Origin: Acidobacteriota bacterium
Lineage (GTDB): Bacteria; Acidobacteriota; Blastocatellia; Chloracidobacteriales; Chloracidobacteriaceae
NCBI GenBank assembly: GCA_016208495.1
Contig: JACQXX010000070.1
Span: 124,001 to 188,000 of the forward strand
Direction of reading: 5' to 3'
DNA length: 64,000 nucleotides
Shown: positions 3,561-18,022 of the stretch, one piece after another
Layout of the letters: each line of letters opens with the position of its first letter
How positions within the stretch are numbered: the first letter of the stretch is position 1
The notes under the pieces: model-generated
Database searches by the model: none
What the model was told of the DNA's origin: nothing
What the model saw: only the letters and a program-made list of their open reading frames with translations
Position numbers and translations under genes: made by a program

Positions 3561-3906
3561 TACAAGTCCCCATAAATTGGGGATGGAATTTGGTTCTTTG
3601 ATCGAATCAACTCGGTTTTCGCCCGCAGGGCGGCGGAAAGTAGCCGGTGGTTTGCCGCTTTGGGCATACCACCGGAGTTCAACCCACCCAGCCTTGCGCC
3701 CGGATGGGCGCTGGAACCGGTCATCGGCCCGGTTCATCATCCGTTCTCGCTGGCTGAATCCAGCGCCCATCCGGGCGCGAATCAGTTTGCGGCCTGGATT
3801 CCGGTGGGTGCGCTGCAAAGCCAGCTTCCCACCGGCTACTCTCCATCGCCCTTCGGGCGGAAACCACATTTGATTTTATTTCATCCCTTTTTTATGGGGA
3901 CTTGTA
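3561..3906. mobile_element. MITE-like element with 16-bp terminal inverted repeats and CTAAG target duplication
   Basis: The ends are TACAAGTCCCCATAAA (3561-3576) and its exact reverse complement (3891-3906). CTAAG stands directly outside both ends (3556-3560 and 3907-3911), as expected for a 5-bp target-site duplication. The 346-bp interior has no credible gene and consists of nested palindromes, including CCGGTGGT/ACCACCGG arms and GCGCCCATCCGGGCGC blocks that recur elsewhere in the window. The right end lies only a few bases beyond the stop codon of the TetR gene. A non-autonomous element moved in trans is the simplest reading; no matching transposase gene is in the window. Confidence 0.7.
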
Positions 3907-9811: not shown

Positions 9812-9888
9812 AAGTCAGTACCACCTGCGTGAGCGGGTGGGTCTGGTTGCTTTCAACTTCCACCCGCTCACGCAGGTGGTACTGACTT
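9812..9888. repeat. Perfect 29-bp inverted repeat, dispersed GTCAGTACCACC family
   Basis: The arms 9812-9840 and 9860-9888 are exact reverse complements around a 19-base loop. The arm begins AAGTCAGTACCACC and ends GAGCGGGTGG. It lies between two convergent genes (sigma-54 activator and S41 peptidase), where the hairpin could stop transcription from both sides. Related single or degenerate arms occur at 18042-18069, 20427-20454 and 22277-22332, so it is a dispersed REP-like family and not a site specific to this pair. Confidence 0.9.
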
Positions 9889-9916: not shown

Positions 9917-11200
9917 TTATTTGGCTAAAATAGCCGCCAGGATCGGGTCACGGGCATTTAAAAAGTCATCTATTGAGGTTCGGACATCAACATCCGGCAG
10001 CATCGAAGGTTCGTCTTTGTCCGAAGTCTTGAAGTATTTGGTCGAATAGGAAACTTCAAGGCCGGAATTGGGGAGTTTGAACGATTTGACTTCACCGAAG
10101 GCATTTGGTTTTTGCCCGGTTGGCTCTCCGAAGATCGTGGCTTTGGTTTGTTGTCGCAACTCAAGTGCATTTAAATACCCGGATGAAAACGTTCCTCGAC
10201 CAATAATGGCAAAGAGCCGTCCGGGCTGGTTGATGGCAGTTCGTTTTTTGATTTCTTCCAGCATTGGCCGGAAAATCACTGAATTCCCGCCGCCATTGTG
10301 CCGCAAATCAATCACCAGCCGATCTACCTGGTGCTGGTCAGCAAAAGCCCAGAGATCCTGATTAAATTTGGCAAAGGGCAGGTCATCCATATCCCGGCAG
10401 CGGTTGTATTTGACAAACAGCGTTTTCGACTCAGCTAGATATTCAAACCAGTAGTTGAGTTGTTGTTTCTGCCGATAAAGCGGGGCGCCACGTTTTTCAG
10501 GATCCAGCGCCTGAACCCAGGAAATTCCGTCAAGTTTCTCAACCGAATTGATTTCAACGGTGTGCGTTTGTCCTTGACGATCCTGATAGGTCAAACTGGC
10601 TCGGATGTCATCCGGAATGATTTTGAGGACCTTTAAAATTCCTGGATTCATCAAATACTGAGGGCTTTCAGTCAAGAGCCACTGGTCGTTTTCATATGAA
10701 ATCAATGGTTTCACCAGTTTGAACGCCTGATCAATCGGTGTATTTCCAATTCGGATTAGTTTGCAGCCGAGCAATGCCTGATGTTCTGCTGGGGACCGCA
10801 ACAGATACAACCCATCTTTGAACCACAGATGCGCCAATGGAAGCACTTTTTTAAACTGCGGATTGAAATCCGTGTGCGCATCATTGACTGAAGCCACAAT
10901 TCGCATCAGCTCAACTTTGATTTCATCATCCGACAGCTTTGGAAGTGTTTTGTCCAGTTGCTGAATAGATCGGTTGAAATCGGCTTTTTTGAGGTGAAAA
11001 AAGAGATTTTTGTGACGCGCCGGGAGTTCTTTGGCCAGGAACTGCACATCCTGGCGCCACTGCTCATCACGCGAGAGAGCTGGGGGAGATGCAGTTTGGC
11101 CAAACCCATCACTGGAAAATATTCCACATCCGAGCGTAAGGAGAAGACTCCAGACGAACAAAAAACGAAACCACGGTTTTTCAGGAACAGAGATCTTCAT
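9917..11200 (-). CDS. S41-family peptidase-like secreted protein
   Basis: About 427 residues from the ATG at 11200, chosen for an AAGG motif at proper spacing; an ATG one codon upstream (11203) and a TTG at 11212 are alternatives. A signal peptide is clear (LFVWSLLLTLGCGIF). The C-terminal half fits the tail-specific protease family S41: a DLRHNGGGNS strand-turn and RGTFSSG, where serine is the family nucleophile, followed by GEPTG. No PDZ domain is obvious. Members cleave peptide bonds in the periplasm or extracellularly. The start lies about 20 bases after the DUF4276 gene, so it may be co-transcribed with the ATPase/DUF4276 pair, which is odd for a secreted protein. Function in that cassette is unknown. 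Confidence 0.8.
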   Translation of the reverse strand: MKISVPEKPWFRFLFVWSLLLTLGCGIFSSDGFGQTASPPALSRDEQWRQDVQFLAKELPARHKNLFFHLKKADFNRSIQQLDKTLPKLSDDEIKVELMRIVASVNDAHTDFNPQFKKVLPLAHLWFKDGLYLLRSPAEHQALLGCKLIRIGNTPIDQAFKLVKPLISYENDQWLLTESPQYLMNPGILKVLKIIPDDIRASLTYQDRQGQTHTVEINSVEKLDGISWVQALDPEKRGAPLYRQKQQLNYWFEYLAESKTLFVKYNRCRDMDDLPFAKFNQDLWAFADQHQVDRLVIDLRHNGGGNSVIFRPMLEEIKKRTAINQPGRLFAIIGRGTFSSGYLNALELRQQTKATIFGEPTGQKPNAFGEVKSFKLPNSGLEVSYSTKYFKTSDKDEPSMLPDVDVRTSIDDFLNARDPILAAILAK

Positions 11201-11219
11201 CATAACCTTCAATTGAAAG

Positions 11220-11834
11220 TTAGCTTCGAAGCTGGTTCAAAAGAGATTCCACATCACGGTAAAGTTTTCGAAATGAAGCAGATCGCTCCAATGCTAATTC
11301 GAGGTCGAACTGCGCCGTAAGTGCTGCCTGATCAACTGTTGGGCTGTATTTTTGACCAGAGGGAAGGCGTTTGGTGAGCCATTCTTTGGTCCCTCTGATG
11401 GACTCAGGTTCTGGCGGTGTTTCTAAATTGCCAGGAAGTCCACGGATACCTCGCAATGATTCAGCCGCCGCCAGAAACCAGGCTTCATATTCGCGGTGTG
11501 CAAAAATAGTCACGATTGGCACATCAGTCCGAAGTCGTTTGGCTTCTTGGAGCAATGCTGGACCAAGTTGAGCCGGGCAATCATCGTCACTATCAAGCAA
11601 AATGAGAATGGCACCTGGACCATTCAGTTTGGCAATGGCCAGGCGGAGTGCTCGTTCAAATTCTCCACTTTGAGCAATTTGACCTTGTCTAACAATTTTC
11701 GAACGATCAGTTAGGACTGGCTGCGGCACATCAACCCACAACTCAGGATCAATCCGTTCTCGAATCCGGCGGATCAGAATCGGTAAGGCGACAACTTCTC
11801 CTTTTCCTTCAACAATGCAACTGATACAGATCAT
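11220..11834 (-). CDS. DUF4276 family protein (TOPRIM-like)
   Basis: A 204-residue protein with the features of DUF4276. The N-terminal strand ends in IVEGKGE, with E9 in the position of the conserved TOPRIM glutamate, and a later strand ends in LLDSDDD (D81, D83-D85), matching the acidic DxD cluster. An HREYEAWFLAA segment near residues 112-125 is also typical. TOPRIM folds bind metal and usually cut or join nucleic acid. Its ATG overlaps the stop of the upstream AAA ATPase by four bases (ATGA), so the two are translationally coupled and probably form one complex. Pairs of ABC-type ATPase and TOPRIM protein are known in anti-phage defence (for example PARIS and OLD-type systems); whether this DUF4276 pair is one is inference. 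Confidence 0.85.
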   Translation of the reverse strand: MICISCIVEGKGEVVALPILIRRIRERIDPELWVDVPQPVLTDRSKIVRQGQIAQSGEFERALRLAIAKLNGPGAILILLDSDDDCPAQLGPALLQEAKRLRTDVPIVTIFAHREYEAWFLAAAESLRGIRGLPGNLETPPEPESIRGTKEWLTKRLPSGQKYSPTVDQAALTAQFDLELALERSASFRKLYRDVESLLNQLRS

Positions 11835-13147
11835 TGTGCCTCGACCCCGAGATCAAAAAGATTGGTTCTGGTGTCAGCCACCGCTATTATTGGGGTAAGC
11901 TGGTCCATTCGAAGGAGTTCACCCGGAGTGAAGAGGTGATCTTTCAGAACAGTCATCCCTGCCTGTGAGAGGTGACCAATTTGAGAAGCACCTTTGTCAG
12001 AGATAACCGCCAGGATTGAGTCTGGATTCACGGTGTGATCATCGAGAATGTCAGGGCTGTGGCAGGTGACGATGACCTGTTTCGTGAGGCTAGCTTCTTC
12101 CATTGCCTCGCGCAGGACTGCTGCAGCGGCTGGATGCAAGTAAAGCTCAGGTTCTTCAATGCAAACGACATTGACTGGGTGGGGGCCAGTTTGAAAAAGA
12201 GCGGTCAGGATTCCAAGGATTCGCAATGTTCCATCTGACATTGCTGAGGCTGCAAAGGCAGACTTTTGAGCCGCTTGGCCATTTGGTGGAATCTGTTCAA
12301 AGACCAGTAATGCTTCCTGAAAGCCGTGTATAACTGATGTGCCGGGGAAAAGAGTACTTGAAGGTATTACTTTGATCCCATGAACTGATGGGACAACAGC
12401 TTTGAGGTAGTTTTCAATACGTTCTTTTATTTGTGGATATTCATGAGCAAGAAAATTGATGATGCTTGCAAGATTATCTCCGTTCATACTCAACGGATAG
12501 CTGTTGGTTAATTGTTGGATTTGCCTTATTTCAAAAAGGTTATCAAAATCATATAGATTGATTTGAGTGAGCGCCGTATAAACTTGGCGAAATGGTTCAA
12601 ATCCGGATAAACCTATTAAACATAAAGATGTTTGGGGAGGAATCGGAGTCCAGGAAGTAACCTGAGAAGGAGACCATTGAAAAAGCGGTTCAAGGTTAGT
12701 TTGAATTATCTTCCCTTTATGAGCGCGAAAGAAAATCTCTGTTTGGCCAGGTGGGTTAGGAAAAGGTGACAGTACTAACTCTTCATCCTGAACCTGAAAA
12801 TCAGCCGTTGGAGTAACCTTTGATTTTAAACGCAAAGCATAATGTCCTGTTTGGCCTGATGGAAAAGCAAACTCCAACCGTATGCCAAGCATTCGGTTGG
12901 GTTGTGGGGCTTGAAATGATTCGTAGAGGCCATGAGATGAGTACAATAAACTCGAAAAACCACCTCTTCTTTTAACCACCTCATTTAGTGAATATTGCAA
13001 GCTAGCGGAAACAAATCGCAAAGCTTGCAAAAAGTTCGTCTTTCCCGCTCCATTTGGTCCGACAAGGTAAGTCAACGGGCCAAGCTCAACATCGCAAAAG
13101 GCGATGCTTTTGAAATTCTCGATGACGACTCGCTTTAGAAAAACCAT
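11831..13147 (-). CDS. AAA/ABC-type ATPase (AAA_21/AAA_15-like, RecF/OLD family relative)
   Basis: A 438-residue ATPase of the SMC/RecF/OLD type: the N-terminus reads FLKRVVIENFKSI, Walker A is GPNGAGKT (30-37), an ABC-signature-like segment lies at SAMSDGTLRI (301-310), Walker B at VVCIEEPE (326-333) and the H-loop at TCHSPD (361-366). The central 180 residues are variable and hold no coiled coil. The protein should dimerise in an ATP-dependent manner and sense or bind nucleic acid or a phage protein. It is the first gene of a minus-strand cassette with DUF4276 and the S41 peptidase. The middle of the gene is AT-richer than its neighbours, consistent with an acquired accessory module. Upstream lies a palindromic repeat element and no other defence gene. 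Confidence 0.88.
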   Translation of the reverse strand: MVFLKRVVIENFKSIAFCDVELGPLTYLVGPNGAGKTNFLQALRFVSASLQYSLNEVVKRRGGFSSLLYSSHGLYESFQAPQPNRMLGIRLEFAFPSGQTGHYALRLKSKVTPTADFQVQDEELVLSPFPNPPGQTEIFFRAHKGKIIQTNLEPLFQWSPSQVTSWTPIPPQTSLCLIGLSGFEPFRQVYTALTQINLYDFDNLFEIRQIQQLTNSYPLSMNGDNLASIINFLAHEYPQIKERIENYLKAVVPSVHGIKVIPSSTLFPGTSVIHGFQEALLVFEQIPPNGQAAQKSAFAASAMSDGTLRILGILTALFQTGPHPVNVVCIEEPELYLHPAAAAVLREAMEEASLTKQVIVTCHSPDILDDHTVNPDSILAVISDKGASQIGHLSQAGMTVLKDHLFTPGELLRMDQLTPIIAVADTRTNLFDLGVEAQ

Positions 13148-13192
13148 ACTTCACCAGCCTGTTTCCTGGCAAAAAACTCAACATTTTTTCCA

Positions 13193-13292
13193 GCGCCCAT
13201 CCGGGCGCGACGTGAAATTGGGCGGTGACCCGGTGGTAGCGCTCAAAGCAGCGCGACCACCGGCTATTTTCCGGCGCCCATCCGGGCGAAAA
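13193..13292. repeat. Palindromic repeat, CCGGTGGT / GCGCCCATCCGGGCGC family
   Basis: Two copies of the near-palindrome GCGCCCATCCGGGCG (13193 on and 13274 on) flank a CCGGTGGT...ACCACCGG hairpin. The same parts make up the interior of the MITE-like element at 3561-3906, and the hairpin part recurs near 23.6 and 27.3 kb. No gene is present. Confidence 0.8.
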
Positions 13293-13390: not shown

Positions 13391-14362
13391 TTATGGAATC
13401 AGCAGTAATTTCCCCATCACGTTTCGGCTTTCAAGTTCGCGATGGGCATCAGCCGCATTTGCGAGTGAAAATGTCTGGGCAATGTGGGGAACGAAGGTTC
13501 CTTCCGCGACATATCGCAGGATATGCGACATATCCGAATTGGGAAGGTAGCGCCCGGAAGCCAGCAGGTTTCCATACTGAAAGCCAAAAATCGCTGCATT
13601 TTTCGGGTAAAAATCGCGCGTGTTGATCAGGCTGTCTTCCAGCGTGACATTGGCCAGGGCGGCGACGCGGCCAAACGGTGCCAGGACTTTGAGCCCCTGA
13701 GCAAAGACTTTGCCTCCAACGGCGTCGAGGAAGGTATTGATGCCTTTGCCATCGGTGGCTTCACGAACAGCGCTCACCAAATCCTGACTCGTGTAGTTAA
13801 TCATCACATCCGCGCCAAGTTGCTGCGCCATCGCCAGTTTTTCATCGCTGCTCGCGCTGGCAATGATCCGGGCTCCGATTTGGCGGGAAATCTGAATCGC
13901 GGCATGTCCGACACCGCTCACGGCGGCTGGAATCAGGATTGTCTCTCCGGCCTGGAGTTTTAAGAGTGAATGGATGCAATACCAGGCGGTGAGCCAGTTG
14001 ATTGGTAAGGCAGCGGCCTGTTCGTACGAAGTCCCGTCTGGAATCAACGCCATATGTTGTTCCAGTGCCACCGTTTCCGTTGTATAGAGGCCCGTTCGGT
14101 TTGAAAAAATCACGACCCGGCTGCCAACCGGGAAACTGGCCGAAGTTGACTCGACGACCTCACCACTGGCTTCAATGCCAGGTCTGGCCGGCACCTGGGC
14201 GCCATGGTAGGCGCCGCTTCGCAAGAGTACATCCGCACGATTAACCCCAATCGCCCGAATTGCCACCCTGGCCGCGTTTTCTCCGAGTGGAAGTGAGGCT
14301 TCTTCCACGAGGTTGAGTTGTTCTGGTCCACCAAAAGCTTCGACAAGAATTGAATGACGCAT
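13391..14362 (-). CDS. Zinc-type alcohol dehydrogenase-like / NADPH:quinone oxidoreductase (MDR family)
   Basis: About 323 residues from the ATG at 14362. The open frame extends further upstream, but that part translates tandem repeats and is not protein. The sequence is a medium-chain dehydrogenase/reductase of the quinone-oxidoreductase class: the N-terminal GroES-like domain contains IGVNRADVLLRSG and PGIEASGEV, and the Rossmann domain has an AAVSGVGHAAIQ glycine motif. Catalytic-zinc cysteines are absent, as expected for zeta-crystallin-like enzymes that reduce quinones or enones with NADPH. The start codon lies a few bases after CT-rich repeats of a heptamer family, with no clear Shine-Dalgarno sequence. 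Confidence 0.88.
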   Translation of the reverse strand: MRHSILVEAFGGPEQLNLVEEASLPLGENAARVAIRAIGVNRADVLLRSGAYHGAQVPARPGIEASGEVVESTSASFPVGSRVVIFSNRTGLYTTETVALEQHMALIPDGTSYEQAAALPINWLTAWYCIHSLLKLQAGETILIPAAVSGVGHAAIQISRQIGARIIASASSDEKLAMAQQLGADVMINYTSQDLVSAVREATDGKGINTFLDAVGGKVFAQGLKVLAPFGRVAALANVTLEDSLINTRDFYPKNAAIFGFQYGNLLASGRYLPNSDMSHILRYVAEGTFVPHIAQTFSLANAADAHRELESRNVMGKLLLIP

Positions 14363-14366
14363 AAGA

Positions 14367-14442
14367 CAGAATGAAGAATTGAGAATGAAGAATTGAGAAT
14401 GAAGAATGAAGAATGAAGAATTGAGAATGAAGAATTGAGAAT
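14367..14442. repeat. Heptamer tandem repeat (AGAATGA / AGAATTG)
   Basis: About ten alternating 7-bp units AGAATGA and AGAATTG on the plus strand, i.e. CT-rich on the coding strand of the oxidoreductase starting at 14362. The same units occur at 14812-14847, after the stop of the next upstream gene and in the opposite sense, and after the recD2 stop at 58514-58578. Confidence 0.9.
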
Positions 14443-14448
14443 GACCTG

Positions 14449-14716
14449 AATTTCGCCCAAAATAGCACCACTTTGCTGAAAAATCAGTACCGACCAGGTC
14501 GGGACACACCTCGTGACCAAAAAGCGGCCAAGTCATTGAGTGGAATCGAAATTCACCGAAATTGAGCCTTCGCAATCACGAACCTGACTTCCAACCTGTC
14601 TTTTATGTCCTTTATGTCCTTTATGTCCTTTATGTCCTTTTCGTCCTTTGGCTCTGGCTCAATCAACCACCTGTGTGACCAAAACTGAGGACAAGATCGG
14701 TATTTTGGGCGAAATT
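14449..14716. mobile_element. Small element with perfect 16-bp terminal inverted repeats inside a heptamer-repeat spacer
   Basis: AATTTCGCCCAAAATA at 14449-14464 is matched exactly by its reverse complement at 14701-14716. The 268-bp element has no gene. Inside are an unrelated 9-bp tandem (TCCTTTATG, about 14603-14642) and a stretch that is clearly homologous to 58579-58780. It is flanked on both sides by GAATGAA-type heptamers. I saw no certain target-site duplication. It may be a non-autonomous mobile element that uses the heptamer tracts as landing sites. Confidence 0.55.
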
Positions 14717-14847
14717 TGGGGAATGAAGAATGCAGAAAACAATGAGTGGTTCGCGGTTAGTTCTTGATTCTTGGAAAGTATTGGTTCCAAAGTACTAAGT
14801 ACCAAGCACTCAATTCTTCATTCTCAATTCTCAATTCTTCATTCCTC

Positions 14848-16779
14848 TTATTCTTCCCATTTGAGCCGCACAAAGTAGAACTCTTCGCTGCGACTCGCCG
14901 GGGTGACTCGAAGGCGAGCGGTATAGTTGTTCTCGCGGCTTGGTTTTTCAAGCAGAATGACCCGGCCTGAGCCTTCTCGCTGCTTGACCGTGAAACCTGA
15001 AACTTCAAAGCGCGGCAACGGGTCACGAAAATCAGAATCGGCATTGCGGAATTGCCGGCGGCGTTCCTGGGGGCTGTAGAGTTCGCTTCCTGAAACTTCG
15101 ATTTCCACATCATCGGTCCCACTGACATAAAATTTCAGGTCGCATCGTTTCCGATTGAGGCTGGTTCGTCCATCGCGGTCCCGATTCCGGTCAGTGCTGG
15201 AAAATCGGTCATTGGGTCCGGAAACGGGTTCGTCGTCCCAATCATCATCCGAACGGCGGCGAGTGTCTCCGGTAGTTGTGCGCGGACGCTCGCTTCGGTC
15301 TGGCTGGTATCGCGAAGCCGATGACCGCCGATCAATTCCAAGGAAGGGATTGTAAATATATTCGAGCGAAAATGACGACTGGTCGGGAAAGCTGAGGTTG
15401 TTGCGCGCACCATAGGCCGGATCAAGTCCCCACTGGCCAACCGCAAGCAGGTTTTTCTTCTTGGTGGCTTTGTCTTCCCAGCCCCAGAATGGTTTGGCTT
15501 TGTCCGCAGCTTCTTTGCGTCCATAAAACGACCCGGCAATTTGATCTATCTGTGGGCGTGGACGATTTCCAAATGGCTGATAAGCATAGTATTTATCAAA
15601 GGTTCGGTCTTCGCGCCCGGCATTGGAATTGGCTCGTTCCCACCACTCCTCATAGATTGGGAGCAGGGCATATCCGACTTCGCGGTCATTAGCGTGGCGT
15701 GGGCGCTCAGCCCGTCCGCGATAGACAAAGGTCACCCCGGTTCCGGTTGAAAACGTGTCATTCGAAAGCGAATACCGCGAGTTTTTGCCCTGGCTGCCAT
15801 ACACACCGTGTCCGCCGGATTCGATAAAAATCACCGGATGCGACCCCTGATACAGTTCAACTTCGCCGTCAATATCGTGAAATCCGTTCCGAACCTGGCT
15901 ATCAGCCCGGAATGAATAAATATTGTTGTGAGCCAGCGTTTCCATGGCTTGAAGGCGACCAAACTGGCTTCGATCTTTGGCAACGGTCAGAATTAACCCT
16001 TCGTTGTCATTTTCGTGGCAGCTACCGGCAATGCAGGTGTCTGAATAATCACGAGGATGAAACAGGTTATAGATCACAAACCAGTGGCTTTCGGTTTCCA
16101 TCACCGTGTAGTAGACATATGCCTGTGACGTGCCCTGATCCAGCGAATCCCAGTTGTTGTCGCCACGCCAGTCGCCGTCATAGTCAAAGCGGGTAATGTA
16201 ATCAGCTTTGGGTTGAAACCAGGTTTCCTGGGCGACAAAAGGGGCATAGTGTTCGGCCAGTTCAAAATAGGAATCCCGCGAAGCTCGTTCATCACGAAAC
16301 TCCTGGCGTTCGGCTGGTTTCCGAGCCTGGGCGCTCGTGCTGACATCCATCACCACGGTCGCGGTCTTTCCGTCCAGTGAGGCTTCGATGGTGTAGCGTC
16401 CAGGTCGGTCCGGTGCGCTATAGAGAAAGCAATCCTGGATCGTGGCCTGGTTGAGCACTTGAAAAAACCGGTTCTCGCCGCTGACAAACGGCCCATCATC
16501 GGTGCCCTGGTATTTAAATTCTTTCGAAATCCATCCGCCGTCACGACTGACAATGCGCACTTTGGCGCCGGTCTTTTTCAACCGCCCGGTCAGGATCTCC
16601 TTGTCCTTTTTTTCAACTTCACCAAAGACCCGCACCTGGATCACAGCGGTTTCCAGTGGGCGAATGCGAGTTCCGGGTTCAACTTTGATTTCCAGCCGGG
16701 TCACTTTTTCTCCGGCACGGACTGATTGAGGGAGCAATGGGATCAGCGACAAAGCAAGAAACAGGATCAATTTCTTCAT
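14848..16779 (-). CDS. Secreted protein with Vps62-like region, unknown function
   Basis: About 643 residues from the ATG at 16779, chosen because it opens a clean signal peptide (MKKLILFLALSLIPLL...). The first 130 residues after it form a beta-rich domain. Residues about 165-420 contain histidine- and tyrosine-rich motifs such as ESHWFVIYNLFHPRDY, FIESGGHGVYG and GRAERPRHAN that resemble Vps62-type (vacuolar protein sorting 62) domains; this assignment is tentative. A low-complexity Arg/Asp/Ser region follows (about 485-560), then a beta-rich C-terminal domain. It is exported. The start lies 19 bases after the stop of the gene upstream, so the two are probably an operon. Confidence 0.6.
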   Translation of the reverse strand: MKKLILFLALSLIPLLPQSVRAGEKVTRLEIKVEPGTRIRPLETAVIQVRVFGEVEKKDKEILTGRLKKTGAKVRIVSRDGGWISKEFKYQGTDDGPFVSGENRFFQVLNQATIQDCFLYSAPDRPGRYTIEASLDGKTATVVMDVSTSAQARKPAERQEFRDERASRDSYFELAEHYAPFVAQETWFQPKADYITRFDYDGDWRGDNNWDSLDQGTSQAYVYYTVMETESHWFVIYNLFHPRDYSDTCIAGSCHENDNEGLILTVAKDRSQFGRLQAMETLAHNNIYSFRADSQVRNGFHDIDGEVELYQGSHPVIFIESGGHGVYGSQGKNSRYSLSNDTFSTGTGVTFVYRGRAERPRHANDREVGYALLPIYEEWWERANSNAGREDRTFDKYYAYQPFGNRPRPQIDQIAGSFYGRKEAADKAKPFWGWEDKATKKKNLLAVGQWGLDPAYGARNNLSFPDQSSFSLEYIYNPFLGIDRRSSASRYQPDRSERPRTTTGDTRRRSDDDWDDEPVSGPNDRFSSTDRNRDRDGRTSLNRKRCDLKFYVSGTDDVEIEVSGSELYSPQERRRQFRNADSDFRDPLPRFEVSGFTVKQREGSGRVILLEKPSRENNYTARLRVTPASRSEEFYFVRLKWEE

Positions 16780-16798
16780 AGACAAGAACTTCACTTCT

Positions 16799-18022
16799 TT
16801 AAGGGAGTGGAAGGCGGATAAACCGTGGCCGGTAAATATCCGCATTGGCAAAGTGTTCGGCAAAGGAAAATGTGTTGACGTTGTAGCTGATAAGCAACTC
16901 ACCGGGGGCTGAAAGATGTGGGTGAGCCTTGGCATTATAGGTTGTGATGTTGGGGGTGAGTGTCGTTTCCGGGCAGGTCCAGATTGGAATTGGTGGTCCC
17001 CACGGTCCGGCTGGACTATTACTATAACTAACCGCCACTGTATTGCTCAAGGTATCAAGTTGAAACACCAGCAGATAGCGGCCATCCGCCAGTGGTGTGA
17101 CGCTAAATTCTGACGAAAGCCGGGATGCAACCGGTGTCGCCGAACGGAAGGTCGTGACCCAGGTTCGGCCATTCCAGAAACGATATTGTGAAAATTGAGC
17201 GATTTTGTCTGGTTTGACACGTCCGACAACCAGTTTTTTATTGCCGGGGTCGTTTCTGAGGCCATACACATAGAGGTATCCATCTGGACGCGGGGCACCG
17301 GCCATCGTGGTGTTGGGCATCACCGCCATTCCAAAGGCCAGTTCGCCCTGGGCACCACTTGCGGCTTGAAACAACCGTGTATCCACCTGGGTGTAGGTAC
17401 GAAACGGATCCGCCAGATTGGCCACCGAATCACTCAACAGGGAAATGCCATCCGTTGCAAAATTAAACACGCCGCTGCCACCGGGTTTCATTCGCAGGCT
17501 GAACAGATACAGCCTGCCATTGACGACCAGTCCATCATTGGGCCAGAACCAGTGTGAAGCTGAGGTATTGGGTACAACTCTGGGCAAAGCGACACCCGTG
17601 TTTGAAGTCTTCCACAAAAATTGGATTTGATTTGGATTGGGCAGACCACCAGAGAGCAGAGCACTGGTGTTGCGAATGATGGTGCTGCCTTCGACTCGCT
17701 GGTTTTGCGTGTTGACTGAACCAATAAACGTGTCGCTAAAGACCCAAAATGTCGTGGTGTTGCCAGCCGTGCCGGGACGTTCATCACCAGAAATTGGAAT
17801 CGAATAAATCCCATCGGCCCCAGTCCAGCCAGTTTGCCGATCAAACAAAGCGTCCCATTCGGGCGCGGCTATAGCACTGTAAGGAGTGATATTGGCTCGG
17901 GTTGGGAGGTCTAACTGAGGGTCAGATTGAGCAAAGCAGAAGCTGACTGACTGTAACCAGCCAAAAATGCTCAAGCAAATCATGAGCACCAGAAGTCGAA
18001 ACGCAAAGAGCTTCCTGGGCAT
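16799..18022 (-). CDS. Secreted DUF4185-like beta-propeller protein
   Basis: About 407 residues from the ATG at 18022, preferred over a GTG at 18046 because AGGAAAA lies at good spacing. A signal peptide covers residues about 8-31 (ending near FCFAQS). The rest is beta-rich with repeated Trp/Asp motifs (WVFSDTFIGS, HWFWPNDGLVV, YLYVYGLRNDPGNKKLVVGR) typical of DUF4185/DUF5005 and five-bladed glycosidase-like propellers that bind or cleave extracellular polysaccharides. I cannot identify catalytic residues. It precedes the Vps62-like gene in a likely two-gene operon of exported proteins. Confidence 0.7.
   Translation of the reverse strand: MPRKLFAFRLLVLMICLSIFGWLQSVSFCFAQSDPQLDLPTRANITPYSAIAAPEWDALFDRQTGWTGADGIYSIPISGDERPGTAGNTTTFWVFSDTFIGSVNTQNQRVEGSTIIRNTSALLSGGLPNPNQIQFLWKTSNTGVALPRVVPNTSASHWFWPNDGLVVNGRLYLFSLRMKPGGSGVFNFATDGISLLSDSVANLADPFRTYTQVDTRLFQAASGAQGELAFGMAVMPNTTMAGAPRPDGYLYVYGLRNDPGNKKLVVGRVKPDKIAQFSQYRFWNGRTWVTTFRSATPVASRLSSEFSVTPLADGRYLLVFQLDTLSNTVAVSYSNSPAGPWGPPIPIWTCPETTLTPNITTYNAKAHPHLSAPGELLISYNVNTFSFAEHFANADIYRPRFIRLPLP

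Follow-up and report, generated by a model that had tools for sequence, protein, structure and literature searches.

PARIS (AriA-AriB) consists of two adjoining genes that encode an AAA_15/AAA_21 ATPase and a TOPRIM nuclease. The system senses Ocr, being triggered by this anti-restriction protein, and its nuclease AriB cleaves tRNA. In class 2 OLD proteins and in GajA of Gabija, an SMC-type ATPase and a TOPRIM plus helical C-terminal domain are carried by one polypeptide. The two-metal site of Burkholderia OLD comprises E400/E404, D455/D457, T506/E508 and K562, and its helical domain spans residues 505-594 (PMC6755086). In Septu (PtuAB), the partner nuclease is an HNH protein. HEC-01 is a candidate anti-phage family, catalogued in PADLOC and uncharacterised. 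HEC denotes a Hma-embedded candidate, and PMC12988326 credits its discovery, by 'guilt by embedding', to the 2024 preprint of Payne et al., which it cites for the family (10.1101/2024.01.29.577857). Our literature search, with bioRxiv preprints outside its scope, returned no paper mentioning DUF4276 or HEC-01 and no phage-protection experiment on HEC-01.

We analysed a locus of three genes within a stretch of 64,000 nucleotides of acidobacterial DNA (here denoted the window):

11831 to 13147, minus strand: HEC-01A ATPase of 438 amino acids; SMC/Rad50/PtuA-type ABC ATPase (AAA_21/AAA_15), presumed sensor/regulator
11220 to 11834, minus strand: HEC-01B DUF4276 protein of 204 amino acids; predicted OLD-like TOPRIM nuclease with a C-terminal helical domain
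9917 to 11212, minus strand: S41-family exported peptidase; a neighbour, judged to lie outside the system

The ORF reading of the window showed that all three genes are real and intact. The first-pass annotation had described a 4-base overlap of the ATPase and DUF4276 ORFs, which we located at 11831-11834, and RecF/OLD-type motifs in the ATPase, which were likewise found: Walker A (GPNGAGKT) occupies residues 30-37 and Walker B ends in CIEEPE at residues 329-334. The TOPRIM-like cluster noticed in the DUF4276 protein, E9 with D81, D83, D84 and D85, is all there. The Pfam scores of the ATPase are 93 bits for AAA_21 (cut-off 27) and 83 bits for AAA_15 (cut-off 32.1); DUF4276, at 46 bits, and Peptidase_S41, at 36 bits, both exceed their curated cut-offs.

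To name the pair, both proteins were compared with the PADLOC models. The ATPase matches HEC-01A (PDLC04178) over residues 2-426 with 376 bits (E 4.8e-113), and the DUF4276 protein matches HEC-01B (PDLC04196) over residues 1-201 with 243 bits (E 8.4e-73). The matches are full-length, the families and their order are those of HEC-01, and the two genes adjoin through the 4-base overlap. On these profile matches the PADLOC naming is unambiguous, and the pair belongs to HEC-01; what had been put forward as a new candidate is therefore already listed. The ATPase scores far lower against AriA (96 bits), Old (86 bits), AbiLi (78 bits) and GajA (56 bits). We rejected the alternative identities one by one. 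PARIS shares the two-gene layout and the ATPase families, and AriB, like HEC-01B, is related to the OLD TOPRIM; however, AriB belongs to DUF4435 (PF14491), whereas HEC-01B combines DUF4276 with an OLD-like helical domain, and in the window protein DUF4276 is the sole Pfam family above cut-off, DUF4435 not being listed at E <= 0.01. Gabija was set aside since ATPase and nuclease are separate genes and no GajB helicase lies beside the pair in the window, where an S41 peptidase, a sigma-54 activator and an alcohol dehydrogenase are found. Septu was excluded because the DUF4276 protein has no HNH match in Pfam. The PtuA fold, which relates both Septu and the retron Ec78/Ec83 effectors to this locus, is among the closest solved structures to HEC-01A. 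AbiL was discarded on its AbiLi score and because the DUF4276 protein has no AbiLii match at E <= 0.01. In fold and layout, the pair does resemble OLD, PARIS and Gabija, as had been pointed out.

In 84,980 scanned genomes we confirmed 261 relatives, and homologous ATPase-DUF4276 pairs occur in more than 10 bacterial phyla. The best 80 of these 261 relatives, together with two loci from plasmids, a phage record and a viral contig, made up the 84 loci used below. The ATPase gene adjoins DUF4276 in 83 of these 84, and the two are separate ORFs in the homologous loci too. The first scoring rule found an adjoining ATPase ORF in 76 loci; in six further loci the ATPase ORF overlaps a DUF4276 ORF that had been over-extended by naive start choice, and in one (L098) the ORF filter had dropped the genes, both of which tblastn recovers in order. 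In the 84th locus (L076) the contig starts 40 bases upstream of DUF4276, placing the ATPase beyond its end. The exact -4 gap is the commonest arrangement (34 of 76 scorable pairs), and the gap lies between -60 and +15 in 71 of the 76. The pairwise distances of ATPase and DUF4276 are correlated (r = 0.70; 1000 permutations of the labels gave no more than 0.20), showing that the two proteins diverge together. One degenerate pair was also observed (L116, 9545-10609), in which the ATPase lacks the stretch matching window residues 64-354 and DUF4276 is intact.

Next to these pairing data stands the conservation of the predicted catalytic residues. Among 73 DUF4276 proteins, G10, D81, E115, E117 and W119 are each present in all 73, E9 and K150 in 72, E13 in 69 (otherwise D) and D83 in 66 (E or N in the rest); conservation is lower at D84 and D85. 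The TOPRIM acids predicted in the first pass, namely E9, D81 and D83, are thus kept in the homologues. In the ATPase, Walker A, an SDGT signature, the IEEPE Walker B and the H-loop (H363) are kept across 70 homologues, and its model (pLDDT 90.4) matches the heads of SMC, Rad50 and PtuA at Z 18-21.

The AlphaFold2 model of the DUF4276 protein (pLDDT 96.9, pTM 0.91) has an alpha/beta core up to about residue 112, followed by an all-helical part. A sequence search of the PDB gave no match for this protein, and Foldseek alone found nothing significant against pdb (best E 0.03), nor did the viral Foldseek search. The likeness to OLD surfaced only when Foldseek candidates were re-ranked with VIA-align, where the C-terminal part of Burkholderia OLD came first (6nk8; Z 9.2; rmsd 4.3 over 167 of 198 residues aligned; residues 1-203 on 392-594). 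Xanthomonas OLD regions reached Z 7.4-7.7 and Thermus OLD 6.9; the best clearly unrelated alpha/beta fold reached 7.7, so that the 9.2 of OLD is modestly higher. AriB was not among the VIA-align candidates, which excludes nothing. An hhalign comparison with the C-terminal half of one GajA was not significant (probability 1.7%), although the VEGxxE motif was aligned nonetheless. The alignment starts of 1 and 392 put E9/E13 on E400/E404 if ungapped, and both proteins present ExxxE, DxD, an ExE just past a strand and a lysine in the same order, a residue set (ExxxE, DxD, xxE, Lys) that class 2 OLD and GajA have in common with HEC-01B. E9/E13, D81/D83, E117 and K150 would accordingly parallel OLD E400/E404, D455/D457, E508 and K562 (PMC6755086), an equivalence that we infer from register and order rather than from coordinates. 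The DUF4276 protein, which has the acids of a TOPRIM two-metal site, is therefore best predicted to be an OLD class-2-like TOPRIM with a helical domain, split from its ATPase into a second ORF, unlike the single polypeptide of OLD and GajA.

To learn about the genomic context of the pair, we inspected the neighbourhoods of the 84 loci (best 80 of 261 relatives plus 4). In ten of them the pair lies in, or directly adjoins, a defence operon:

L072, L127, L128 and L144: pair within DISARM
L074: pair directly after HmaA
L073 and L082: pair after HmaA and PDC-S01
L136: pair flanked by a DUF1156 methylase and a PLD helicase
L077: pair followed by an HKD-Snf2 helicase and a type IIG enzyme
L067: pair beside Gabija (GajA-GajB)

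The argument is these ten named loci and not a statistic, and many other homologous loci have ordinary neighbours. The expectation that homologous pairs occur near defence genes was nevertheless borne out, in DISARM, Hma, Gabija, methylase-helicase and type IIG operons, and the embedding beside HmaA is that of HEC-01. We also observed a PDC-S01-type gene between HmaA and the pair, in the same orientation and separated from them by short distances (L073, 7423-8640; L082, 3144-4361); the gene in L073 was assigned by PADLOC match and that in L082 by clustering with it.

The window copy differs from such homologues in having an ordinary chromosomal neighbourhood outside any defence operon. The surrounding genes, which by Pfam encode a TPR-transglycosylase, the S41 peptidase, a sigma-54 activator and an alcohol dehydrogenase, show no defence neighbours, and the proposed defence island is not recognisable around the pair. 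The first pass had reported palindromic repeats on both sides and read them as a sign of an island. The repeats are there: a perfect 29-bp inverted repeat at 9812-9888 on one side and direct repeats at 13186-13207 and 13267-13288 on the other. They do not mark island borders, since both families are dispersed, the first with 141 copies at no more than 2 mismatches in the 8.4-Mb genome and the second recurring at 3697-3777. The 29-bp family often occurs as inverted pairs about 20 bases apart and is REP/REPIN-like. At 14354-14444, 14588-14649 and 14809-14847, around where the dehydrogenase gene has its 5' end, lie tandem arrays of short units, GAATGAAGAATTGA and TGTCCTTTA, and the first of these stretches recurs inverted at the last; beyond them, an ORF at 14848-16935 encodes a 695-amino-acid product without a Pfam match.

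Together, the acids conserved in the nuclease and the homologues within defence operons uphold the original proposal of an ATPase and TOPRIM-type nuclease as a candidate defence pair. We consider it highly probable that the pair is an anti-phage module of the HEC-01 type that acts as a split, two-protein system resembling OLD and PARIS, with the S41 gene as a chance neighbour. From this reading we infer complex formation, regulation, nuclease activity, a trigger, a target and protection as follows. HEC-01A, an SMC/Rad50/PtuA-type ABC ATPase, would form dimers via its ATP sites, bind HEC-01B in a complex and watch the cell for a sign of infection. Two Mg ions would be held by E9/E13, D81/D83, E115/E117 and K150 in the TOPRIM nuclease HEC-01B, which would cleave nucleic acid once the control by the ATPase is lifted. 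The outcome may be destruction of the invader's DNA, or a halt in growth through cleavage of host nucleic acid, where an AriB-like attack on tRNA is possible. A more specific role, that of a guard module by analogy with PARIS and Ocr, is tentative and rather doubtful: its repeated insertion among the parts of DISARM, Hma, type IIG and methylase-helicase systems may reflect service as a second line, in which the pair would sense the inactivation of such a restriction-like host system by a phage and free its OLD-like nuclease, possibly against tRNA. Stand-alone copies such as the one in the window would then respond to a broader anti-restriction cue.

The pair might instead serve plasmid maintenance or act in the manner of a toxin-antitoxin module, with the ATPase keeping a toxic nuclease in check and defence being incidental; this would fit the layout of an ATPase with a nuclease, the presence of the pair on large Streptomyces plasmids and the description of PF13304 as a 'putative AbiEii toxin'. 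The ATPase, however, comes first, is large and is catalytically conserved, unlike small antitoxins; homologous pairs stand within DISARM and Hma operons; and in PARIS, which has the same layout, deletion of either gene is non-toxic (PMC9122126). We regard this explanation as unlikely.

A housekeeping ATPase-nuclease for DNA repair or chromosome maintenance (RecF/SbcCD/OLD-like) would agree with the closeness of the ATPase fold to SMC, Rad50 and PtuA heads, and PMC12796447 reports an archaeal OLD-family ATPase that has a role in the cell cycle. Housekeeping genes would be expected to be nearly universal in relatives, whereas the branch of the window is very patchy, having relatives in 9 of 396 sampled genomes of Acidobacteriota. 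On the DUF4276 tree the phylum labels are scattered (deep support is weak) and the row closest to the window protein is a planctomycete (60% identical), which suggests horizontal transfer. Among viral contigs we found a single relative, and among phage records one unannotated scaffold with a relative. HEC-01 occurs twice more in the genome of the window, at G000:C30 and G000:C48, as divergent pairs whose proteins match the HEC-01A and HEC-01B models in their own right; three divergent pairs in one genome, like the defence-operon neighbourhoods of homologues, also speak against a housekeeping role, which we hold to be quite improbable.

The S41 peptidase had been included in the cassette in the first pass, as a secreted protein just after DUF4276. 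It does begin there, on the same strand, 7-19 bases past the DUF4276 stop depending on the start used (TTG 11212, ATG 11203 or 11200), and its N-terminus is a hydrophobic export signal. Direct and iterated profile searches detected no S41 gene in any of the 84 homologous loci (0/84; best 80 of 261 relatives plus 4), so S41 genes do not recur beside the pair in these loci and the peptidase is judged not to belong to the cassette. Orthologues 46-47% identical to it occur in two related genomes (G001 and G034), where their neighbours are different and the pair is absent. One contig of G001 keeps the transglycosylase gene with the sigma-54 gene, and another keeps the dehydrogenase with further window genes, which places the S41-pair block at a rearrangement point. 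In the same genome as the window, one of the other HEC-01 pairs (G000:C30; L153, 7787-11363) has a convergent S41-family gene directly downstream; this second S41 protein belongs to another subfamily (24% identical to the window S41), and S41 genes number at least 15 in this genome. A cassette of all three genes, with the exported peptidase as a functional part, for instance in protease-dependent activation or as an envelope effector, would account for the two adjacencies, but the 84 loci, the orthologue neighbourhoods, the convergent second gene and an export signal implying action in another compartment make it very improbable, and we judge the S41 gene to be a chance neighbour and no component of the pair's system.

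These results resolve the cassette into a pair that is real, widespread and linked to defence, belonging to a family already named, and a protease outside it. What the analysis adds is a mechanistic assignment for DUF4276, the predicted OLD class-2-like TOPRIM plus helical domain with its specific residues. Seen as a split OLD, HEC-01 would become directly comparable with PARIS-type models.
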